DNA from: Myxococcales bacterium
GTDB lineage: Bacteria > Myxococcota > Myxococcia > Myxococcales > Anaeromyxobacteraceae
Length of the DNA stretch: 64,000 bases
Assembly: GCA_021806645.1 (NCBI GenBank)
Contig: JAJZQX010000001.1
Coordinates: 1-64,000, forward strand
Direction: 5' to 3'
The notes beneath the pieces were generated by a model that had not been told where the DNA came from, made no database searches, and saw nothing but the letters and a program-made list of their open reading frames with translations. Made by a program: the position numbers and the translations under genes. This document shows, one piece after another, positions 45,731 to 57,614 of the stretch; the stretch's first letter is position 1; each line of letters starts with the position of its first letter.

Positions 45731-46018
45731 ATGGGTCTCGATGAGTTGCTGAAGAGCAAGGAGGAACTGCACCGTGTGGCGCGCGCACACGGCGCCACGA
45801 GCGTGCGCGTATTCGGCTCCTTCGTGCGAGGCACGGCTGGGCCCGAGAGCGACGTCGACTTCCTCGTCGAGTTCGAGCCAGGCCGCACCCTCCTTGACCT
45901 CATGGCGCTCATCCGGGAGTTCGGTGCCCTGCTCGGGCGCAGGGCCGATGTCACGACGCCGACAGCGCTCCACCCGCTCTTGGCCGCCCGTATCCTGGCG
46001 GAGGCCCGGCCGCTGTGA
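45731..46018 (+). CDS. mntA: MNT-domain nucleotidyltransferase antitoxin (MntA type)
   Basis: This 95-residue minimal nucleotidyltransferase shows the canonical GSx10DxD motif (G29, S30, D41, D43). MntA antitoxins transfer AMP to a Tyr of the HEPN toxin and silence it. The gene overlaps the HEPN gene by 4 bases. The ATG has an AGGAAC-like site upstream. Confidence 0.85.
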   Translation: MGLDELLKSKEELHRVARAHGATSVRVFGSFVRGTAGPESDVDFLVEFEPGRTLLDLMALIREFGALLGRRADVTTPTALHPLLAARILAEARPL

Positions 46019-46336: not shown

Positions 46337-46345
46337 GTGGCCGTC

Positions 46346-46534
46346 ATGAAGCGCCGCGAGCTGGAAAACCGCTTGCGGGCGCAAGGCTGGTCCCTCCTGC
46401 GGCACGGAGGCAGCCACGACGTGTGGACGGACGGCGAGCGGCTCGAGTACGTGCCGCGGCACGCCGAGATCAACGAGATACTGGCGCGGAAGATCCTGAA
46501 GAAGGCCGGATCGAAGACGGGGAGCGAGTCATGA
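46346..46534 (+). CDS. hicA: HicA-type mRNA interferase toxin
   Basis: The 62-residue double-stranded-RNA-binding-like toxin has catalytic His24 in HGGSHDVW. A GTG at 46337 could add three residues, but ATG 46346 gives the normal length. Its stop overlaps the hicB start (ATGA). Confidence 0.85.
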   Translation: MKRRELENRLRAQGWSLLRHGGSHDVWTDGERLEYVPRHAEINEILARKILKKAGSKTGSES

Positions 46535-46965
46535 GGCTGGCAGGTCGAATCTGGAAGGAGGGAAGGCTCTGGCTCGCCGAGGTGCCCATGCTCGACGCCA
46601 TGACCCAGGGGCGCACCCGTCCGGAGACCTTCCGCATGGTCGCGGACCTCGTCGCGACCATGGCCGACAAGCAGGGGTTCGAGGTGCACGTGTATCCTGG
46701 CTCACAGGGCGAGTTCGAGATCGGCACCCCGGACGCGGCCGCGCTGGTGGCTGTCATGCTCCGGCGCCAGCGGGACAAGCATGGCCTCTCGCTCTCCGAG
46801 GTGGCTCGGCGGCTGGGTGCGCGATCGAAGACTTCCTATGCCCGTTACGAACAGGGGCGGAGCGTGCCGACCGTCGAGAAGCTGTTCGAACTCCTCGCTG
46901 CCGTCGCGCCCACCGAGGACTTCGTGCTCCAGGAGAGTCCACACCGCCCTCACCGGGCGGCGTAG
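46531..46965 (+). CDS. hicB: HicB-like antitoxin with XRE helix-turn-helix
   Basis: The 144-residue protein has an N-terminal partial RNase H-like HicB domain (IWKEGRLWLAEVPMLDAMTQG) and a C-terminal XRE helix-turn-helix (LSLSEVARRLGARSKTSYARYEQG). It would neutralise HicA and repress the operon through the dyad at 46317. Confidence 0.82.
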   Translation: MRLAGRIWKEGRLWLAEVPMLDAMTQGRTRPETFRMVADLVATMADKQGFEVHVYPGSQGEFEIGTPDAAALVAVMLRRQRDKHGLSLSEVARRLGARSKTSYARYEQGRSVPTVEKLFELLAAVAPTEDFVLQESPHRPHRAA

Positions 46966-47079: not shown

Positions 47080-49968
47080 GTGTTCGACCAGCCGATCGAC
47101 GTCCTCCTCTACCGGGACCTGGAGGTCCGCCAGCTCGGCCGGCAGGTCGAGTCGGCCATCGAGCAGCTCCGCGCGGGCGACTTCCGCGCCGCCGACGCCC
47201 GCAAGCTGAAAGGAACGGCGCTGTACCGCGCCAGGCTCGACGACCGGAACCGGCTCCTCTTCAAGTTCGGCGAGCACGCCGGCCGGCGGGTGCTGCTGAT
47301 CCTCGAGGTGGTGCACAACCACGATTACGCCCGGTCCCGCTTCCTGGGCGGCGGCGAGGCGAGCGACGCGGACTTCGAGCCGGTGCCGGCGGGACCGGCG
47401 CCGGACGGCGCGCCCGCCGGGGGCTGGAAGGGCGTCGAGGCCGAGCCGATGGCCTACCTCAACCCGGCCTCGACGGTGCTCCACCTCCTGGACAAGCCGC
47501 TCTCGTTCGACGACGCCCAGGCGGCCGTCTTCGGCACGCCGCTGCCACTCATCGTCATCGGCTCGGCCGGTTCGGGCAAGACCGCCCTCACCCTGGAGAA
47601 GCTCAAGACGCTGCCCGGCCACGGGCTCTACCTCACCCGGTCCTCCTTCCTGGTCGAGAACGCGCGGTCGCTCTACTACGCCCACCGTTACGCCAACGAC
47701 GGCCAGGAGGTGGACTTCCTCTCGCTGGCGGAGCTCGTCGAGACCATCCAGGTCCCGTCTGGGCGAGAGGCGCGCTGGCGGGACTTCGCGGCCTGGTTCG
47801 AGCGGCACCGCGGCGCCTTCAAGCTGCGGGAGCCGCACCGGGTCTTCGAGGAGGTGACCGGGGTCCTGACGGGCTCGGCCGAGGCGGGACCGCACCTCGG
47901 CGAGGACGAGTACCTGGCCCTGGGCGTCCGGCAGTCGATCTTCCTCGGCGAGGAGCGGCGCGCCGTCTACCGGGTCTTCGAGCGGTGGCTCGCCCACCTG
48001 CGCGAGCACGGGCTCTTCGACGCCAACGTGGCCGCCTGGGAGCGGCGGGGCCTGGCGACCGAGCGCTACGACTTCCTGGTGATCGACGAGGTGCAGGACA
48101 TCACCCCGGTCGAGCTTCGGCTGGCCCTGGCCACGCTCAAGGACAAGCACGCCTTCCTGCTCTGCGGCGACTCCAACCAGATCGTGCACCCCAACCTCTT
48201 CTCCTGGGCCAGGGTCAAGAGCCTCTTCCACGGCGACGGCGGGCGCCTCGACGGCCAGTCGCCCCTCGACCGGATCCACCTCCTGTCGGCCAACTACCGG
48301 AACACCCGGGCGGTGACGGCGCTCGCCAACCGGCTGCTGCTCGTCAAGCAGCGGCGCTTCGGCTCGGTGGACCGGGAGAGCAACTACCTGGTCGAGTGCG
48401 TCAGCGGCGAGGAGGGGCGGGTGGAGCTGGTGGGCGACAGCCCACAGGTGCGCGCCGAGCTCGACGCCCGGACCCGCCGCTCGGCGCGGACGGCGGTGGT
48501 GGTGCTCCGCGACGAGGACAAGCCGGCGGCCCGGGCGGCCTTCTCCACCCCGCTCCTCTTCTCGGTCCAGGAGGCCAAGGGGCTGGAGTACGAGAACGTG
48601 GTGCTCTTCAACCTGGTGAGCGGCGCGGCCAGGGAGTTCCGGGAGTGCGCCGCCGGCGTCGAGCCGGCCGAGCTGGAGGGCGGGCTGGAGTACGCGCGAG
48701 CGCGCGACAAGGCCGACAAGAGCCTCGACGCCTACAAGTTCTACGTGAACGCCCTCTACGTCGCCATGACGCGAGCGGTGAGGTCGCTGGTGATGATCGA
48801 GGCCGAGCCCGGCCACCCGCTCCTCGCGCTCCTGGACGCCGGTGAGGCCGGAACCCAGGTCGAGCTGGCCGCCGAGGAGTCGTCGCGCGAGGAGTGGCAG
48901 CGCGAGGCGCGGCGGCTCGAGCTGCAGGGCAAGGCCGAGCAGGCCGAGCAGATCCGGCGCGACATCCTGGAGGTCAGGCCGGTGCCCTGGGCGGTGGCCG
49001 ACGCGGCCGCGCTGGCCGGTCTCCAGGCCCGGGCGCTCGGCCCGGGGCCGACCGACAAGGCGGCGCAGCAACTCCTCTTCGAGTTCGCGGTCACCTACGA
49101 CGCCCTGGCGTTGCTGCCGCGGCTGGTGGCCGCCGGCTTCCGTCACGCGCGGAAGGCCGAGTCGGGGCGCGCCTACATCGAGGACACCCACTACGCCGAG
49201 TACCGGCAGCGGCGCTCCCCGCGCCTCCAGGACCAGCTCCGCGCCCACGGCCTGGACTTCCGCAACCCGCTCAACGAGACCCCGCTCATGGTGGCGGCCC
49301 GGCTCGGCCGGCACGACCTGGTGGCCGAGCTGCTGGCGCAGGGCGCCGACGCCGAAGCCACCGACTCGGCTGGCCGCACCGCCCTGCGGGTGGCGCTGGC
49401 GGCCGGGCTCGACCAGCGCGGCGTCAAGGCGGCCGCCTTGGAGCAGGTGTGGGAGCAGCTGGCCACCGCGCCCCTCAAGGTGAAGCTAGGCGACCGGATG
49501 GTGAAGCTCGACCCAAGCACCATCGAGTGGTTCCTCGTGCAGCTCTGCCTGGTGCAGATCCGGCGCATGGTGGATGGAGCGGCCCGCCAGGGCGCGCTGC
49601 CGCTGCTAGACGCCCCCGGCCTGGTCCGGCTGGTCGCCGGCCTCCCGCCTGGCACCCTGGCCGCCTACCGGCGCCGGAGGGAGTACCTGTCCTCGGTCCT
49701 CGCCAAGGACGAGCTCGGCTCGACCAATCCTTACAGCCGGCGCCTCTTCCTGCGGGTGCGGCGCGGCGCCTACGCCCTCTGCCCGGCGCTGGAGGTCGAG
49801 GTGAAGGGGGAGTGGGTCCCGGTCGGTGACCTGATGGGGCTGCCGCACCTCTTCGAGGCCATCGGCCCGGAGGCGGCGCCGATCGCGAGGTGGATGTCGG
49901 GAATTCGCGCCGCGCTGACGCCGCCCGCCGCGCCCGAGAAGGAGGCGCTGAGCGTGGGTGGCGGGTGA
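47080..49968 (+). CDS. RelE-like domain / UvrD-type SF1 helicase / ankyrin fusion protein
   Basis: The 962-residue protein has three parts. Residues 1-90 resemble a RelE/ParE-fold domain (RLDDRNRLLFKFGEHAG, VVHNHDYARSRF). Residues 150-580 are a UvrD/PcrA-like helicase core: GSAGSGKTA (161-169), DFLVIDEVQD (331-340), GDSNQIVHP, SANYRNTRAVT (about 404), VQEAKGLEYENV (about 496) and YVAMTRA (about 558). After a linker there are ankyrin-like repeats (732-775, NETPLMVAARLGRHDLVAEL) and an uncharacterised C-terminal domain. The start is GTG with AAGGTG upstream. It follows two toxin-antitoxin modules and stands alone. A role in phage defence or in RNA/DNA damage control is possible but unproven. 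Confidence 0.82.
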   Translation: MFDQPIDVLLYRDLEVRQLGRQVESAIEQLRAGDFRAADARKLKGTALYRARLDDRNRLLFKFGEHAGRRVLLILEVVHNHDYARSRFLGGGEASDADFEPVPAGPAPDGAPAGGWKGVEAEPMAYLNPASTVLHLLDKPLSFDDAQAAVFGTPLPLIVIGSAGSGKTALTLEKLKTLPGHGLYLTRSSFLVENARSLYYAHRYANDGQEVDFLSLAELVETIQVPSGREARWRDFAAWFERHRGAFKLREPHRVFEEVTGVLTGSAEAGPHLGEDEYLALGVRQSIFLGEERRAVYRVFERWLAHLREHGLFDANVAAWERRGLATERYDFLVIDEVQDITPVELRLALATLKDKHAFLLCGDSNQIVHPNLFSWARVKSLFHGDGGRLDGQSPLDRIHLLSANYRNTRAVTALANRLLLVKQRRFGSVDRESNYLVECVSGEEGRVELVGDSPQVRAELDARTRRSARTAVVVLRDEDKPAARAAFSTPLLFSVQEAKGLEYENVVLFNLVSGAAREFRECAAGVEPAELEGGLEYARARDKADKSLDAYKFYVNALYVAMTRAVRSLVMIEAEPGHPLLALLDAGEAGTQVELAAEESSREEWQREARRLELQGKAEQAEQIRRDILEVRPVPWAVADAAALAGLQARALGPGPTDKAAQQLLFEFAVTYDALALLPRLVAAGFRHARKAESGRAYIEDTHYAEYRQRRSPRLQDQLRAHGLDFRNPLNETPLMVAARLGRHDLVAELLAQGADAEATDSAGRTALRVALAAGLDQRGVKAAALEQVWEQLATAPLKVKLGDRMVKLDPSTIEWFLVQLCLVQIRRMVDGAARQGALPLLDAPGLVRLVAGLPPGTLAAYRRRREYLSSVLAKDELGSTNPYSRRLFLRVRRGAYALCPALEVEVKGEWVPVGDLMGLPHLFEAIGPEAAPIARWMSGIRAALTPPAAPEKEALSVGGG

Positions 49969-50202
49969 CGGGCCTGCGTTGACCGTCAGCTCCTCCGCCG
50001 GCGACAGCTCGCCGTGGCGGGCCGGCGTGGCCGACAGCCGCCGGCAGACCGCGACGGCGATCGCCGTCCAGACGCCGGCGCGCAGCGTCATGGCCGCCAC
50101 GGTCCTGGTCTCGAAGGCCCCACCTGCGACGACGTGCACGCCGAAGGCACCGGCCAGGAGGGCCACCGGAACGAGCCACCAGGAGCCAGCGCCGAACTTC
50201 AT
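49606..50202 (-). CDS. Possible small membrane protein at the end of the nos operon
   Basis: The ATG at 50202 has AGAGGG 8 bases upstream and lies 30 bases after nosY. Residues 1-60 contain two plausible membrane helices (WWLVPVALLAGAFGVHVVAG and GVWTAIAVAV). The rest of the 198-codon frame is Arg/Pro-rich and lies antisense to the helicase gene, so only the first 60-80 codons look real. It may be a short accessory gene that lost its stop. Confidence 0.35.
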   Translation of the reverse strand: MKFGAGSWWLVPVALLAGAFGVHVVAGGAFETRTVAAMTLRAGVWTAIAVAVCRRLSATPARHGELSPAEELTVNAGPSPATHAQRLLLGRGGRRQRGANSRHPPRDRRRLRADGLEEVRQPHQVTDRDPLPLHLDLQRRAEGVGAAPHPQEEAPAVRIGRAELVLGEDRGQVLPPAPVGGQGARREAGDQPDQAGGV

Positions 50203-50232: not shown

Positions 50233-51078
50233 CTAGAGATCGGCCCTGGAGAGCCGGCGGACCGCCGCCAGGGTCGGCAGCACGATCCAGGTCACCAGCG
50301 AGACCACCACCAGCAGCGCGGCCCCGGTCGCCCCGCGGGTGAAGCGCAGGAGCGCCAGGGATCCCGGACCGAAGGCGGCGGTCCCCTCGATGGCGAGCAG
50401 CGCCCCGGTGCGCATGGCGCTGGCGGGGTTCAGGAGGACCGAGAGGATAAGGAGCCGGGAGGCCGCGGTGGAGGGGAGAACGGACGCCACCCCCAGCGCC
50501 ACCAGGTCGATGAGGAGCACGGCCACGAACCAGACCACCAGGGCCACGGCCAGCGCCCGGGCCCGCTTGCGCCCGACCGCTCCGGCGGCGATGAGCGCGG
50601 CCAGGGAAAGGAAGACCGCGGTGAGGAGGAACGAGCCCAGGACCAGGATCGCGTAGCCGGCCGCGCCGTCCTCACCGGTGTTCTGGAAGACCACCAGCCC
50701 GGCCAGGCCGAAGCCCACGGCTTCCGCGGCGGCCAGCGCCGCGAGGAGCCCGAGGAGCTTGCCGACGAGGATCTGCCTGCGGGCGATGGGCTGGGAGAAG
50801 AGCAGCTCGGCGGTGCCCCGCTCCGGGGCCAGGGCCATCACGCCCATGAGGAGCGAGGCCAGCGGGACGACCAGCGCCACCAGCTGCACGAGCGAGGCGC
50901 TGGTGCGGGCGAAGTCCTGGAAGCCATGGCCCCCCGAGAGGATGTAGCCCGAGGCGGAGACCCCCAGCGCCAGGACCGCGAAGACCGCGGCGAAGATCTG
51001 GGTCCAGCGCGAGCGAGCCGCCAGCAGCAGTTCCTGGCGAGCCACCAGCAACATGAGGGAGGTGCGCGGAGCGGTCAT
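50233..51078 (-). CDS. nosY: NosY, ABC-type permease for NosZ maturation
   Basis: This 281-residue inner-membrane protein has six hydrophobic helices and the ABC-2 motif MALAPERGTAELLFSQPIARRQILVGK. With NosF and NosD it forms the complex that helps deliver sulfur and copper to the CuZ site of NosZ. Its start overlaps nosL by 4 bases. It is the last certain gene of the operon. Confidence 0.9.
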   Translation of the reverse strand: MTAPRTSLMLLVARQELLLAARSRWTQIFAAVFAVLALGVSASGYILSGGHGFQDFARTSASLVQLVALVVPLASLLMGVMALAPERGTAELLFSQPIARRQILVGKLLGLLAALAAAEAVGFGLAGLVVFQNTGEDGAAGYAILVLGSFLLTAVFLSLAALIAAGAVGRKRARALAVALVVWFVAVLLIDLVALGVASVLPSTAASRLLILSVLLNPASAMRTGALLAIEGTAAFGPGSLALLRFTRGATGAALLVVVSLVTWIVLPTLAAVRRLSRADL

Positions 51079-51536
51079 GGGGTGCCGTCCGGGGGGCCCT
51101 GCGGCCCGAAGAGCTCCGCCACCGGCACCGGACTTCCCTCGGCGGCGGCGGGATCGCCGTCGCGGGAGGTCCGGCCGGCATGGGCGATGACGTGCGAGGA
51201 CATCGGTGTCCGCAGCGACTCGCGCCGGGTGTAGAGCGCCCGCGCGGCCCGCACCCACTCCCCGGTGCGGTGATCGGCCACGAAGGCCACCGAACCGCGC
51301 GGGAGCCGATGGTTCGCCCCGAGGTAGTCGCGCAGGCAGCCGAGGTCGTCGAAGAACCTGGGCTCCTCCCCCGGCGCCGCCAGCTGGCCGGCGAAGCGGG
51401 CGTCGGACACGGCCATGCGGCAGAAGGCGCAGCTGTCGCTCCTGGTGTCGACGGAGCTGGGCTGCGCCGGGCCACGCGAGCAGGCGGCCAGCGTGAGGGC
51501 CAGGGCGGCCCGGCAGGCGACGCCGGCGGTGGTCAC
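51075..51536 (-). CDS. nosL: NosL, copper-binding lipoprotein
   Basis: The 153-residue protein has lipobox LAAC (Cys19) and the copper motif C36-x2-C39-x-M41. The family body follows: FFDDLGCLRDYL, FVADHRTGEWV and TPMSSHVIAH. NosL gives Cu(I) to apo-NosZ in the periplasm. The GTG start overlaps the nosF stop (GTGA). Confidence 0.93.
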   Translation of the reverse strand: MTTAGVACRAALALTLAACSRGPAQPSSVDTRSDSCAFCRMAVSDARFAGQLAAPGEEPRFFDDLGCLRDYLGANHRLPRGSVAFVADHRTGEWVRAARALYTRRESLRTPMSSHVIAHAGRTSRDGDPAAAEGSPVPVAELFGPQGPPDGTP

Positions 51537-52432
51537 GGCGCTCCCCCGGCCAGCTCGCGGTAGAGGGTGTCGAGCCGGCCGTCGTCCGAGGCGATCCCCC
51601 GGATCTCGGCGCCACCGGACCGTACCGCCTCGAGCGCCGCGGCGCGGATCTCGGCCGACCCGGGAATGGAGAGCTGCGACATGGCCCAGCGCGCGCCGGG
51701 CGCGAGCCGCTGGACCCGCGCCAGCAGCTCCGTCGGGCAGGCATCGAGCCTGAGCCGCATCACGCCGCGCGCGGCCAGGCGATCCGAGAGCTCGTGCTGG
51801 GTCAGGTCGGCCACCAGCCGCCCCTCCACCAGCACCGCCACGCGGTCGGCCAGCCGCTCCACGTCGCCCCACTGGTGCGAGGTGAAGAGCACCGTCTGGC
51901 CGTGCTGGCGGCGCTGCTCCACCAGGCCGTAGAAGGCGCCGAGGCCGTCGGCATCCAGGGACGAGGTGGGCTCGTCGAGGAGGAGGACCGGAGCGCTGGG
52001 CAACGCGGCCACCGCCAGCCCCAGCCGCTGCGTCATGCCGCCGGAGTAGGTGCCCACCTGCCGCCCGGCCGCGCCGTCGAGAGCGGCCACCTGGAGCACC
52101 TCGTCGGTCCGTGCCGGCTCGACGCCGCGCAGCAGGCGGTAGAACTCCACCACCTCACGCCCCGTGAGCAGGTCGGGGAAGGATACCTTCTGCGGCAGGA
52201 AGGAGAGCACCCGGCGGGCGCCCGGCAGCGTCGCCGGAAGGCCGGGCTCGCCGACCAGCACCTGCCCGGAGGACGGGCGCAGCAGCCCGGCGGCCGCCTT
52301 GAGCGAGGTGGTCTTGCCCGAGCCGTTGGGCCCGAGGAGCGCCACCACCTCGCCGGCCCGGACCGCCAGGGTGAGCCCCTGGACGGCGTGGTGGGAGCCG
52401 AAGGTCTTGGACAGGGCCTCGAAGCGGATCAC
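51533..52432 (-). CDS. nosF: NosF, ABC ATPase
   Basis: This 299-residue ATPase has Walker A GPNGSGKT, signature YSGGMTQRLGLAVAAL, Walker B LLLLDEPTSSLD and switch His in FTSHQWGDVERL. NosF powers the NosDFY complex. The GTG start at 52432 overlaps the nosD stop. Confidence 0.94.
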   Translation of the reverse strand: MIRFEALSKTFGSHHAVQGLTLAVRAGEVVALLGPNGSGKTTSLKAAAGLLRPSSGQVLVGEPGLPATLPGARRVLSFLPQKVSFPDLLTGREVVEFYRLLRGVEPARTDEVLQVAALDGAAGRQVGTYSGGMTQRLGLAVAALPSAPVLLLDEPTSSLDADGLGAFYGLVEQRRQHGQTVLFTSHQWGDVERLADRVAVLVEGRLVADLTQHELSDRLAARGVMRLRLDACPTELLARVQRLAPGARWAMSQLSIPGSAEIRAAALEAVRSGGAEIRGIASDDGRLDTLYRELAGGAP

Positions 52433-53802
52433 GCCGTCTCCCAGCGCCACCGGCGACCCGCGCCCAGGACCGCCAGCCCGGTGCCGATGAGTCCAAGCGC
52501 TCCGGCCAGGCCCCATGGATCGAGGCGCCGCCCTCGCGGCGCCTGCGCCGGGACGTCCGGGAGGAGCGGCGGCCGGGCCAGCGGGGAGCCGTCGGCCACC
52601 TGGATGGCCTCCAGGACCGGGAAGGCCCGCTCGGCGGCCGAGAGCGCCAGCGCCGCCGGGCTCTGCGCCATCAGGTCGGCGGCGGTGAGGTTGCCCCGCA
52701 GGTGGTCGAAGAGGCTTCCCAGGGTGTAGGGGCGATCGCTTCGCCCGTCGCCGTCGAGATCCGTGGCGTCGTTGTCCGACCAGTAGTTCCCGTCGAAGCG
52801 CGTGTCGGTGCGGCGCGCGAACAGCGCCAGCGGCGAGAGGTTGCCGATGAAGGCGTTCCCCTCGAAGCGGTTCTCCGAGCTGGAGCCGTACAGCACGATG
52901 GCGATGTCCGACTGCGCCAGGACGTTCCGCCGGAAGAGGTTGCGCGACGACCCCTCCAGGAAGACGCCGCGCGCGTTGTCGGCGATGAGGTTGTCCTCGG
53001 CCACCGAGTCGTCGAGGTCCTTGAAGAGCAGCCCCACCGAGGCGAAGCCGCGATTGTGGATGAAGCGGTTGCGGCGGAACTGGATCCGCTTGGAGAACAT
53101 GAGCACCGCGCCCGCCGCCGACTGCTCGAAGAGGTTGTCCTCGAAGACGTTGTCGTCCGAGTTCATGTAGTGAAGTCCGTAGCGCAGCCGGCGCGCCACG
53201 TTGCCCCGGATCGTCCCCTGGGAGGCGCTCTGGATGTAGATGCCATCGCGCGCGTCGGCGATGTCGTTGCCGACGAAGGTGAAGCCGACCGTGTTCCAGA
53301 CGTGGATGGCGGACCCCTTCTCGCCGGCCTCGCGGCCCGGGATCCCGCGGATGACGTTGCCCTCGACGCGCACCCCCGGCGCCTCGCGCACGTATACACC
53401 GAAGAGGGTGTTGGCGATGCGGCAGTCGCGGACGGTGGCTCTGGGCGCGGCCACGTGAACGCCGGAGGAATCCGCGGCGAGGTCGCCACCCGCCAGGCCG
53501 TCGATGTCGAAGCCCTCCACCACCACGTCCGGTGCCCGGACGCGGACGACACTGCCCTTCCCCGAGCCGATGAGCGTGGGGCGGCCCCTGCCAATCAGGC
53601 GCACGGGCCGGTCGAGGTAGACGTCGCCGCGGTAAGTTCCCGGCTCCACCTCCACCACCGCGCCGGGCGCGGCGGCGTCCAGGCGGGCCTGCAGGGGTGA
53701 GAGGTCGGCCGGAGCCGGGCGACCCTCCAGGTTGCCGGGCAGCAGGGCCGGCATCTCTCCGGCCGCCAGGAGGGAAGCGGCGAGGACGAGGGCGGGGCTC
53801 AC
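52429..53802 (-). CDS. nosD: NosD, periplasmic right-handed beta-helix protein
   Basis: The 457-residue protein has a signal peptide (1-15 or so), then parallel beta-helix rungs typical of NosD (DVVVEGFDIDGLAG, VRDCRIANTLFGVYV, GLHYMNSDDNVFEDN, RFDGNYWSDNDATDLDGDG) and a C-terminal membrane helix. NosD receives copper from NosL and docks with NosZ. It is 12 bases after the NosB-like gene. Confidence 0.93.
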   Translation of the reverse strand: MSPALVLAASLLAAGEMPALLPGNLEGRPAPADLSPLQARLDAAAPGAVVEVEPGTYRGDVYLDRPVRLIGRGRPTLIGSGKGSVVRVRAPDVVVEGFDIDGLAGGDLAADSSGVHVAAPRATVRDCRIANTLFGVYVREAPGVRVEGNVIRGIPGREAGEKGSAIHVWNTVGFTFVGNDIADARDGIYIQSASQGTIRGNVARRLRYGLHYMNSDDNVFEDNLFEQSAAGAVLMFSKRIQFRRNRFIHNRGFASVGLLFKDLDDSVAEDNLIADNARGVFLEGSSRNLFRRNVLAQSDIAIVLYGSSSENRFEGNAFIGNLSPLALFARRTDTRFDGNYWSDNDATDLDGDGRSDRPYTLGSLFDHLRGNLTAADLMAQSPAALALSAAERAFPVLEAIQVADGSPLARPPLLPDVPAQAPRGRRLDPWGLAGALGLIGTGLAVLGAGRRWRWETA

Positions 53803-53814
53803 GGCAACCAGATA

Positions 53815-54465
53815 CTACCCGGGTCCCTGGCCTGCCACGGTTCCGGCGCGGCGGGCCGTCCGCCAGGCGAGGACCAGGGCCAGGAACAGGGCCAGCGCCG
53901 CCGCGCCGAGCGCCCAGGAGGCGAGCGACGGGTAGGAGTAGACCTCGAAGTTGGCGAGCTGCTTGCCCCCGAAGACCGGCGGCATGAAGGGCGGGACCTT
54001 CACCGCCGCGGTCGGCGCCAGGTTGTGGCCGTAGGACCAGAGCTTGTGGGCGAAGGACCAGAGTGAGAAGCCGCTGAAGTAGACGAACATCACGGTGACG
54101 TCGACGAGGTATCCGACCGTCCCGAGCATCACGGCCCTCAGGAAGAGCAGCCCGAAGGCCCCGATGGCGAAGGGCAACCAGAGGAACTCGGTGAAGTCCT
54201 CGGCTACCAGATCCTTCATCCCGATGTAGTGGTTGAGGAGGTTGATCTCCTTGGTGTCCTGCCCGTGGTTCCCGCCCTCCAGCTTGTAGCTGTAGATGTC
54301 CAGCCGTAGCCCCTCCTGGTACTGGGGCGCGAACATGGTCAGCCGCCAGAGCGGAGACACCAGGGCCGGCGCCAGCAGCAGCGTGGCCAGCAGGAGGAGC
54401 CCCCGTGGACCGAGCCCAAGAGGTGACTTTAGGATGCGGTCGCTCTTCTCTATGAACGATCTCAC
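53815..54465 (-). CDS. nosB: NosB-like membrane protein of clade II nos clusters
   Basis: The 216-residue protein has about four membrane helices (near 22-45, 95-118, 120-145 and 185-205) and a large soluble loop (MFAPQYQEGLRLDIYSYKLE, NLLNHYIGMKDL). Clade II nos operons carry such a gene directly after nosZ, called nosB; its role is not settled. The start is GTG with a perfect AGGAGG 6 bases upstream. Confidence 0.8.
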   Translation of the reverse strand: MRSFIEKSDRILKSPLGLGPRGLLLLATLLLAPALVSPLWRLTMFAPQYQEGLRLDIYSYKLEGGNHGQDTKEINLLNHYIGMKDLVAEDFTEFLWLPFAIGAFGLLFLRAVMLGTVGYLVDVTVMFVYFSGFSLWSFAHKLWSYGHNLAPTAAVKVPPFMPPVFGGKQLANFEVYSYPSLASWALGAAALALFLALVLAWRTARRAGTVAGQGPG

Positions 54466-54483
54466 GGGGGCCTCCTGGCCTCG

Positions 54484-56361
54484 TTACCTGGGCTTCACGA
54501 CGAGGTAGCCCTGCATCTCCTGGTGGAGCGCCGAGCAGAAGTTGGTGCAGTAGTAGGGGAAGACGCCAGGCCGATCGACCTTGAGGGTGAAGGTCTTGGT
54601 CTCGCCCGGATCCACCACGACGTTGACGTTCCAGTCGAGCAGGCCGAAGCCGTGGAGCTCGTCGGTGGTCTGCTCGATGTTGGTCAGGGCGAAGGTCACG
54701 GTGTCACCCTCCTTCACCTCCACCGCGGTGGGCGTGATGGTGGAACGCACCAGCACCGCCTTGACGGTCACCTTGTCGCCCTGGCGGGTCACGCCGGCGT
54801 CCTTGACGTCCCAGACGGCCAGGGGGTGCTTGTTCTCCTCCTTGGGGTAGACCTCGATGGCGTGGATCTTGTCCGCCTTGATCATCTGGGCGTAGTGCGG
54901 CTCGGGCTCGGTGAAGGCGTCGTAGATGAGCTTCATCTTCTCCTCGGAGATGTCCACCAGCTGCGACGACTCCGGCTGCGAAGGGCCCACCGGGAGGTGG
55001 CGGCCGTGCGACAGCTTGTTGAGGCCGACCAGGTACTTTCCGTCGGGGCTGACCGTGTCGCCCTCGGCGGCGGCGAGGTGGCCGATGGAGTAGCTCATGG
55101 GCACCTTGTCCACGACCTCCCAGGTCCCGAGCTTCCACTTGACGATGGCGCTGTCTACGAAGAGCGAGGTGTAGGCCCAGTTGTCCGGTCCGAACTGGGT
55201 GTGGAGCGGCCCGAGCCCCACCTGGACCTCGGCGTCCTTGATCGACTCGTACTTCAGGACCGGGATGCCGTCCTCGTCGCCGGTGAAGTCCTTGTTGCGG
55301 ATGGCGGTGAGGATCTTCTCCATGTTGAAGACGGTGGTGACGCCCTGGAGCTTGCCTGAGCCCACGATCCAGTGGCCGTCCGGCGAGACGTCCACGCCGT
55401 GCGGGGACTTGCCGCACGGCATCAGGTAGACGAAGCCCGGGAGCTTCCTGGGATCGAGGACCTTGACGCCGCCGACGAGGTCGCCCTTGCCGTCCTTGGC
55501 GTGCTTCTCGGCGTCACGCCAGTTGATGGCCACGATGTAGTCGCGGTCGCGCTGCGAGGCCGTGACCTCCAGCTTGCCGGTGGCGCGCTCTGAGTTGTAG
55601 GCGGTGAGGAAGAACCAGCCGTCGGAGGGGCCCTTGCCGGCGTCGCCGAGGTCCCAGTCGAAGGGGGGCAACAGCACCTCCCACCCCAGGGTCATGGCGC
55701 CGGTCTTGGGGTCCACCTTGACGCCGGCGGCGATGCCCTTGTAGGTGGCGGCGTACCTGTCGATGGGGGCGTAGGTGCCCTTGGGGATGGGGATGGAGAA
55801 GCGCGAGGACATCAGGAGGTACTCGCTGTTGGGCGTGATGAAGGTGGAGCCGTGGTTGCCCGAGATGTTGGCCACCGGCCCGATGATCTCCTTGGTCTTG
55901 AAGTCGCGCAGGTCGATGCGTGCGATCCGGCCGTTCATCTCGTTGATGAAGAGCCAGCGGCCGTCGTAGTCGCCCTTGGTCTCCGAGAGCGCCGGGTGGT
56001 GGGCGTCACCCCAGGTGAAGCGGCCGAGCATCTTCTTGGAGTCGTCGTCGAAGCCGTAGCCGGTGCCGGGATAGGGAGAGAAGACCGGGATGGTGGAGAG
56101 GTGGCGCATCGACGGCACGCCGTAGACGTAGACCTGCCCCGAGTGGCCTCCCGACGAGAACATGTAGTACTCGTCGAGGTCGCCAGGCGCGACGTAGGTC
56201 TTCATGGCCGCCACCTGGAGATCGGAGGCCGCGGTGGGCGCCTTCCTGGCGCTGGTGGGCGCCGACGGCGCGCAGCGGGCCAGGAGGAGGGCGCCCGCCA
56301 CCAGCCCCACCGCCGCCAGGCCGCGTTTCGACCACTTCGACAGGTTCGTCATCTGGTCCAT
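54484..56361 (-). CDS. nosZ: Nitrous oxide reductase, clade II (Sec-type)
   Basis: NosZ reduces N2O to N2. The 625-residue protein begins with a Sec-type signal ending LLLARCAPS (a lipobox-like Cys30), not the Tat signal of clade I. The beta-propeller carries the CuZ histidines: DAHH, GNHGS, SPHGVD, GPLHTQF and SIGHLAA. The C-terminal cupredoxin holds CuA as C605-x3-C609-x3-H613-x2-M616. The ATG 56361 lies 23 bases after the cytochrome c gene. All ligands seem present, so the enzyme should be active. Confidence 0.97.
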   Translation of the reverse strand: MDQMTNLSKWSKRGLAAVGLVAGALLLARCAPSAPTSARKAPTAASDLQVAAMKTYVAPGDLDEYYMFSSGGHSGQVYVYGVPSMRHLSTIPVFSPYPGTGYGFDDDSKKMLGRFTWGDAHHPALSETKGDYDGRWLFINEMNGRIARIDLRDFKTKEIIGPVANISGNHGSTFITPNSEYLLMSSRFSIPIPKGTYAPIDRYAATYKGIAAGVKVDPKTGAMTLGWEVLLPPFDWDLGDAGKGPSDGWFFLTAYNSERATGKLEVTASQRDRDYIVAINWRDAEKHAKDGKGDLVGGVKVLDPRKLPGFVYLMPCGKSPHGVDVSPDGHWIVGSGKLQGVTTVFNMEKILTAIRNKDFTGDEDGIPVLKYESIKDAEVQVGLGPLHTQFGPDNWAYTSLFVDSAIVKWKLGTWEVVDKVPMSYSIGHLAAAEGDTVSPDGKYLVGLNKLSHGRHLPVGPSQPESSQLVDISEEKMKLIYDAFTEPEPHYAQMIKADKIHAIEVYPKEENKHPLAVWDVKDAGVTRQGDKVTVKAVLVRSTITPTAVEVKEGDTVTFALTNIEQTTDELHGFGLLDWNVNVVVDPGETKTFTLKVDRPGVFPYYCTNFCSALHQEMQGYLVVKPR

Positions 56362-56384
56362 GGTTCCGTCCTTTCCGTGGAGGT

Positions 56385-57614
56385 TCACTGCTTCCGGCTC
56401 AAGGGGGCTGCCGTGCCGGCCGCCTTCTGCTTCTGGTGCTCGGCGAAGGCCTCGCGGAGCTTCTGGATGGCCACCGCCTTCTCCTCGGGGGAGAGGATGA
56501 TCTGGCGCGACAGCACCACGGCCATGGTCCCCGAGGGCGTCGCCAGGAAGTCGTCGATGGTCCGCCCGAACCGCTTCTGGACGTCCTCCACGGCGATGGA
56601 CAGGTCCGGTCCGATCTGCGCCGGGCTCTTCACGCCCAGCGAGGAGACGGAGTGGCAGACGAAGCAGCCGGTCTTGACGAACCAGGCGCCCGGGCCGGTG
56701 GCCATCTTCCGCTCGGTCTCGACCTCCTCGACGGTCTGCGGATCGGTGCGGGGGGCGCCGGCCAGGAAGGTGGCCGGCACCGGAGAGCGCCGCCAGGACA
56801 GGACCAGCATGGCCAGCGCCTGGGCCTCCTTGGTGGTGAAGTTGAACTGGGGCATGACCGTGTCCAGCACCAGCGCCCGCGGCTCCTTGAGGTGGGCCAC
56901 GTGCCAGGCGAACGAGGTCTTCTGGCCCGAGAGGTGGCTGAAGTCGTACTGCTCGGGCGCCTTCTCTCCGGCGAAGGTGAGATCGGGGCCGATGCTGCCG
57001 CCGCGGCCGTTGATGACGTGGCAGGCGCGGCATCCCTTGTCCTTCACCAGGGCCTTGGCCAGGTTGATGGCGTCGGCCCCCTTGGTCTCGCGGTCGTAGC
57101 GGTGGCAGACGTTGCAGTTCATCTGCTGGAGCGCGCCCTTCTCCACCAGGTCGTAGGCCTCACCCATGGCCCTGGAGAGCACCGGCTCCTCCCAGTAGGC
57201 CACCGGGCCGTGCGCCTCGGGCGCGTCGATGGCGTACCCCTGGCCGCCGTGACACGCGCTGCAGCCGTACCGCTCGGCCGGATGGGAACGGAGAATGGCC
57301 TCCGGGTGGGTCCGGAAGGGCTCCTCGTCATCCTCGAAGCCCTTCCACTTGGTGGCCTGGTGGCAGCTGATGCAGCGATCCGCTCGCTGCAACTCGGGCA
57401 CCCAGACCTGCTGCAGGCCGGAGGGGACGGTGGCCGCCTTGTCGGCGCCGAACTTGGCGGCCACCCGGTTCCGGAACTCGTACTGGTAGTAACGCCAGTC
57501 GTGGGCCCGGTCGCTCCGCACGAAGAGGACGGTGGAGACCACCAGCAGGACGCCGATGACCGCCAGGATGGCGCGGTCGCGCGCGCGGAACGGCGAGGGG
57601 GAGCGCTTCTCCAT
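56385..57614 (-). CDS. Membrane-anchored pentaheme cytochrome c
   Basis: The 409-residue protein has one N-terminal membrane helix (about 15-35) and five CxxCH haem sites: CISCH, CSACH, CNVCH, CRACH and CFVCH. Spacing and the distal Met-containing segments (TVMPQFNFT) resemble fused class I cytochromes. It lies between cytochrome b and NosZ and would carry electrons from the quinol oxidising bc unit to NosZ or its donor. Start ATG 57614. Confidence 0.9.
   Translation of the reverse strand: MEKRSPSPFRARDRAILAVIGVLLVVSTVLFVRSDRAHDWRYYQYEFRNRVAAKFGADKAATVPSGLQQVWVPELQRADRCISCHQATKWKGFEDDEEPFRTHPEAILRSHPAERYGCSACHGGQGYAIDAPEAHGPVAYWEEPVLSRAMGEAYDLVEKGALQQMNCNVCHRYDRETKGADAINLAKALVKDKGCRACHVINGRGGSIGPDLTFAGEKAPEQYDFSHLSGQKTSFAWHVAHLKEPRALVLDTVMPQFNFTTKEAQALAMLVLSWRRSPVPATFLAGAPRTDPQTVEEVETERKMATGPGAWFVKTGCFVCHSVSSLGVKSPAQIGPDLSIAVEDVQKRFGRTIDDFLATPSGTMAVVLSRQIILSPEEKAVAIQKLREAFAEHQKQKAAGTAAPLSRKQ

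Follow-up and report, generated by a model that had tools for sequence, protein, structure and literature searches.

RelE toxins are normally held in check by a separate, unstable antitoxin, which raises the question of how such a fold would be controlled, and what it would do, when it forms the head of a much larger protein. The window analysed here (the whole stretch of 64,000 nucleotides from a Myxococcales contig) contains such a case in the form of an open reading frame of 962 amino acids (aa), for which the first-pass annotation had proposed, from the letters of the DNA, a fusion of a RelE-like part, a UvrD-type motor and ankyrin repeats. This fusion was borne out by the fold model, the motor motifs and Pfam.

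Conservation and architecture of the gene

The open reading frame, which starts with GTG and is present as a single copy in its own genome (4.14 Mb, 33 contigs searched; nearest named relatives in the Anaeromyxobacteraceae), is a real gene, given that its ends and frame are conserved and its dN/dS is low. Start, frame and full length are repeated in relatives with 80-88% identity and are also kept in about 30 more relatives at 33-68% identity, and the same RelE/motor/ankyrin architecture is found in about 30 relatives, constant across phyla. Compared with the near relatives, the RelE part has a dN/dS of 0.18-0.38 and the motor one of 0.23-0.34, and values of 1 or more are reached only in the linker between the two (residues 93-130). 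The mean column identity in the alignment of the RelE part is 56%, versus 52% for the whole protein. Purifying selection on the RelE part is of similar strength to that on the motor. The coordinates of the gene, its parts and the genes upstream are collected in Table 1.

Table 1. Position of the gene, its domains and motifs, and its upstream neighbours in the window
Feature	Positions	Strand	Basis
MNT-type nucleotidyltransferase (MntA-like; PADLOC PDC-S09)	45731..46018	+	profile match
Shortened HepT-like HEPN protein, 69 aa	46015..46224	+	profile positions 71-118 of 120 only
HicA toxin	46337..46534	+	profile match
HTH antitoxin-like protein in HicB position	46531..46965	+	profile match
Whole gene, 962-aa RelE-like / SF1 helicase / ankyrin protein	47080..49968	+	full-length model pLDDT 84.8, pTM 0.83
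RelE-fold domain, residues 1-92	47080..47355	+	alignment, AlphaFold model, Foldseek, VIA-align
UvrD/Rep-type SF1 motor, residues 134-595	47479..48864	+	Pfam, structure match
Walker A GSAGSGKT, residues 161-168, K167 invariant	47560..47583	+	alignment
Motif II DEVQD, residues 336-340; D336, E337, Q339 and D340 invariant	48085..48099	+	alignment
Motif VI NALYVAMTRA, residues 557-566, R565 invariant	48748..48777	+	alignment
Ankyrin stretch, residues 723-776, about 2 repeats in helical region 603-794	49246..49407	+	Pfam, model
C-terminal domain, helices and strands, residues 779-946	49414..49917	+	alignment, model

The N-terminal domain

An alignment of 34 sequences (residues 1-104) served as input for an AlphaFold model of the N-terminal domain, which was predicted with a pLDDT of 92.4 and a pTM of 0.85. 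Foldseek matched this model to PDB structures of YoeB/ParE and RelJK with a probability of 1.00, with YafQ and YefM-YoeB also among the best matches, while VIA-align gave YoeB of S. aureus as top match (Z 9.3, rmsd 2.4, 77 residues) and RelE/YoeB/HigB/YafQ/ParE-like proteins for all 50 matches listed. By its modelled fold, the N-terminus thus belongs to the RelE superfamily. A predicted structure devoid of a RelE fold had been named beforehand as an outcome that would count against the first-pass annotation; the fold turned out to be present.

At the sequence level the relationship is far more distant. None of the Pfam RelE/ParE models matched the N-terminus above its cut-off (the best being PF24732, ParE_like, with an E-value of 0.0057, which also matched weakly and below cut-off in 6 of the 34 members), and a PDB sequence search with the N-terminal profile returned no match. 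Profile comparison with RelE/ParE families was uninformative, and that with YoeB was weak yet in register; the hhalign probability for the link to RelE was at most 15%. Three sequence-profile alignments, each of them weak, agree in placing R58 on RelE R61 and YoeB R65, and hhalign, likewise with weak scores, aligned Y49-R50-A51-K/R52 to Y51-K52-I53-K54 of RelE.

Twelve positions (K42, R50, A51, R58, L59, L73, L75, E76, H81, Y83, R87 and F88) are invariant in all 34 sequences. Basic residues are thereby found at each of the positions of RelE K52, K54 and R61, with R50 and R58 invariant and residue 52 being either K or R. H81 and Y83 sit where the last core strand ends, i.e. at the position of H83-Y84 in YoeB, and going by this strand-end position only they are probably equivalent to those residues; their counterparts in RelE would be the general acid R81 and the terminal tyrosine Y87. 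Cleavage by RelE depends most on R61, R81 and Y87 (PMC2807027), and for YoeB PMC12620021 gives E46, R65, H83 and Y84 as the essential residues.

A protein of 821 aa from Clostridia (L039:6669-9131) likewise joins a RelE-like start (NHRVLW ... TDHD ... SNFF) to a UvrD motor and gave no ankyrin match. It is distant from the family and retains both R58 and H81; the RelE-UvrD fusion may thus be broader than the ankyrin-bearing family.

The motor and the C-terminal part

The motor was matched by the Pfam families UvrD, AAA_19 and UvrD_C_2. The first-pass annotation had called it a complete UvrD-type motor, in which it proved right: the motifs are invariant, and the full-length model matches E. coli Rep with a Z of 24.8 over 396 residues, followed by UvrD, PcrA and HelD (HelD structures at Z 19-22, Schlafen 11/14 at Z 17-20). 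Besides the residues given in Table 1, R407 and the KGLE stretch (500-503) are also invariant. Judged by its predicted fold and by motifs I, II, IV, V and VI with their catalytic residues, the motor is of an intact SF1 UvrD/Rep type, and its ATP-driven action is putative.

With Rep, UvrD and PcrA as nearest folds, the protein could in principle be an ordinary UvrD/Rep-type helicase of DNA repair or recombination, in which the RelE-like N-terminus is a degenerate leftover. A leftover is hard to reconcile with an N-terminal part that is as conserved as the rest of the protein (in column identity as well as in dN/dS), nor is the gene a core gene, which makes this explanation highly improbable.

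The ankyrin repeats that had been claimed do exist, but there are only about two of them, and the matches are confined to one short stretch rather than a long array. A PDB sequence search with the full protein was swamped by designed ankyrins. The structural matches of the full-length model span residues 66-593 only, and not the C-terminal domain. This last domain is absent from a relative in Sulfurovum (L037).

Neighbourhood of the gene and its homologues

It had been noted that the gene stands in a row with MNT/HEPN and HicAB genes. These do lie directly upstream (Table 1), but the row is not common to all close relatives, and the HepT-like HEPN protein looks internally shortened, as its apparent HepT start (DDRPYLADILQAA) passes straight to a C-terminal half with RDVLIHQY. 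The 3' end of the same HTH gene also precedes the homologue at one locus (L009), the only one at which the HTH/HicB adjacency is kept. At two other loci (L010 and L011) the homology to the window starts 15 and 5 bases, respectively, ahead of the start codon and stops with the gene, so that two of the three close relatives have no flank in common with the window; this confinement of the homology points to a gene that is mobile by itself. To the right, synteny with a genome of the same genus (G053) breaks off at 50035, shortly after the end of the gene. Immediately beyond the gene, a nitrous-oxide reductase (nos) cluster (50233-57033) occupies the minus strand.

Because L010 and L011 lack the flanks of the window, HicAB and MNT/HEPN can be rejected as the cognate antitoxin as a general rule. 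Across about 25 homologue loci no recurring partner or antitoxin gene was found, which implies that control is exerted either in cis or by a host factor. The typical defence-island setting of the first-pass annotation was therefore overstated, there being no conserved defence or antitoxin partner. Most of the flanking genes are not of a defence type. Restriction-modification genes were found near one locus only, that of a Chitinophagales homologue (L014:4769-6479), in the form of genes for an EcoRV-type restriction endonuclease and a type II methyltransferase, located two genes upstream. VapC-type toxin genes do stand closer than expected: of 21 homologues, 3-4 have a VapC-type PIN gene at a distance of up to 5 kb, versus 0.36 expected from the same genomes (P ~0.006 for three and ~0.0005 for four, for a family that was chosen after being noticed). 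HigBA genes are near one homologue, and a DUF1778-GNAT pair lies 3' of the Deinococcus homologue. Overall, the neighbours fit accessory regions, with the functional link unproven.

Distribution and mobility

The gene is present in 8 of 195 genomes of its phylum and in none of the three other genomes of the same genus. Relatives were found in Myxococcota, Lentisphaerota, Kiritimatiellota, Bacteroidota, Chlorobiota, Pseudomonadota, Thermodesulfobacteriota and Campylobacterota (several of them metagenome-assembled genomes), and the family spans at least nine phyla. Some labels of metagenome-assembled genomes ('Bordetella parapertussis' and 'Klebsiella pneumoniae' for the near-alike L020 and L022) probably reflect mistakes in binning or naming and were excluded as taxonomy. 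The tree mixes phyla: a clade made up mainly of betaproteobacteria also holds Chlorobiaceae and a Methylosinus plasmid, and Myxococcota branch at more than one point. Plasmid homologues amount to 135 records, from Deinococcus, Thermus, alphaproteobacteria, cyanobacteria and Enterobacteriaceae. Among Shigella plasmids, about 100 records, large virulence plasmids included, carry a full-length homologue of 40% identity, which is annotated as a UvrD-helicase domain protein or not at all.

In E. coli, 111 of 5426 genomes gave a match, which covers at least 80% of the gene in 95 of them (~1.8%), and the inspected loci lie in islands that carry both IS elements and satellite-like genes. The annotations of the homologues go no further than 'hypothetical', 'ankyrin repeat' or 'UvrD-helicase domain-containing'. 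About 60 bases 3' of the homologue or its remnant, and in the same direction, lies a gene for an Rpn-family nuclease in several islands (L106:9835-10776, L108:9832-10371 and L109:5597-6538); behind the homologue of strain CM2 (L107) no Rpn-family gene was found. In strain 23AR0303 the gene is reduced to a 3' remnant (L109:4995-5537), which lies behind IS elements and adjoins both an interrupted Rpn gene and genes for Afa/Dr adhesins.

A phage origin is unsupported. No homologue was found in a search of 50,697 phage records, and of the two matches in IMG/VR one (L104) is partial, while the other (L103:5749-8796), read by eye, is just outside the left end of a Mu-like prophage, where it adjoins inovirus Gp2-like and AlpA-like genes.

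The family is hence patchy, mobile and horizontally scattered, i.e. accessory and not core. This bears on an objection raised beforehand, namely that homologues lying mainly in housekeeping contexts would speak against a role in defence. The objection holds by half: many homologues stand by themselves, flanked by unrelated genes that are often of the housekeeping kind, but sporadic occurrence, horizontal scatter and carriage on plasmids and E. coli islands are not the behaviour of a housekeeping gene.

Such carriage might also be expected of a maintenance device, i.e. an addiction-like fusion that keeps its own plasmid or island from being lost and is not directed against phages, as would the IS elements and satellite-like genes of the E. 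coli islands and the toxin-antitoxin genes that are often close by. Classical addiction, however, rests on the faster decay of a separate antitoxin, whereas here the toxin and its presumed restraint share one polypeptide, leaving no separate antitoxin that could decay faster. Since, moreover, 102 of the 112 placements in E. coli are chromosomal, maintenance as the function of the gene seems quite improbable.

Proposed mode of action

The combination of a RelE fold, conserved basic, histidine and tyrosine residues, a fixed fusion and the lack of an antitoxin gene is best read as a self-controlled ribonuclease effector. More specifically, there is in our estimate about an even chance that the gene encodes a self-restrained RelE-type ribonuclease, a one-gene effector that is checked and triggered in cis by its motor/ankyrin part. 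The N-terminal RelE/YoeB-type domain would then cut RNA (most likely mRNA on the ribosome), joined as it is to a presumably ATP-driven UvrD/Rep-like motor that is followed by the ankyrin repeats and the C-terminal domain. While the cell is at rest, the large part would hold the RelE part off its target, by which the job of the antitoxin would be done in cis, and an encounter of the motor/ankyrin part with an unusual nucleic acid or a partner might free or deliver the RelE part. As the first-pass annotation had proposed, the protein may thus sense foreign nucleic acid and act through its RelE part. The role of such a mobile accessory gene would probably be defence against phages or rival elements, or stabilisation of the element that carries it. 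Ribonuclease activity, inhibition in cis, the trigger and the role in defence are what we infer from these observations.

In the main rival explanation the protein would be a clearing motor that, much as HelD does, removes stalled ribosomes, RNA polymerase or RNA-DNA hybrids, with the RelE-fold head as a non-cutting binder of RNA or the ribosome and the gene as an accessory stress gene. The HelD structures among the motor matches are consistent with this, as are the many loci without defence neighbours and the fact that RelE toxins occupy the ribosomal A site (PMC2807027). A mere binder, on the other hand, need not keep the RelE-type basic, histidine and tyrosine positions invariant, and the patchy, mobile spread is more what one expects of a conflict gene than of a general recycling factor, and we therefore regard a clearing motor as unlikely.

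The broader proposal that the self-restrained ribonuclease constitutes a widespread single-gene immune or conflict effector (an antitoxin-less RelE, fired in cis, in at least nine phyla and ~2% of E. coli) is more tentative, and possible rather than probable. If true, it would represent another way of restraining and releasing a toxin aimed at the ribosome, in which the fold is built into a motor protein and the antitoxin is dispensed with. As natural homologues occur in E. coli, the idea is directly testable.

Comparison with known systems

Scans of Pfam, NCBIfam and PADLOC showed no dedicated family, and a literature search (with subscription papers mostly outside its reach) returned no paper on the RelE/SF1/ankyrin architecture; the family thus seems to be undescribed. 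PADLOC 2023 gave no full-length match to a defence model, only partial generic helicase and ankyrin matches with a best E-value of 7e-7. These include the likeness to GajB of Gabija (E ~1e-6, partial), with which the protein shares a generic UvrD-type motor; it differs in its other extra domains and in that no GajA-type nuclease partner lies beside the window gene or its homologues. Nor does the gene belong to the type II toxin-antitoxin systems, as a conserved antitoxin gene was lacking in the ~25 loci. Eukaryotic TRANK1, which combines ankyrin repeats with a UvrD-like motor, may be a further likeness and was not used in the argument.

With the YoeB/RelE interferases the protein shares the fold (Z 9.3), R58 in register with YoeB R65 and RelE R61, and the invariant histidine and tyrosine with which the last core strand ends. 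In contrast to these toxins, it is fused to a helicase and ankyrins without a separate antitoxin gene, and its sequence is too diverged for any Pfam RelE/ParE cut-off. Similar in concept is Cami1, a bacterial CARF-RelE effector (PDB 8phj, 8phb) that is among the fold matches listed (Z 8.4) and in which a RelE domain is likewise placed under a sensor in the same chain; the sensor of Cami1 binds a cyclic oligonucleotide, whereas the partner here is an SF1 motor with ankyrins. That motor has the fold and motifs of the SF1A helicases Rep, UvrD and PcrA, and differs from them in a short motif IV-V region (~90 residues), the extra RelE head and the ankyrin/C-terminal tail. The human antiviral proteins Schlafen 11 and 14 use another ribonuclease fold and another helicase subfamily. 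They resemble the present protein by analogy, in that a ribonuclease domain and an SF1 motor are combined in one chain (Z 17-20), with homology claimed for the motor fold only. The self-restrained ribonuclease proposed here would therefore find a parallel in bacterial Cami1 and, by analogy, in the animal Schlafens (ribonuclease plus helicase), while its full architecture is common to neither.
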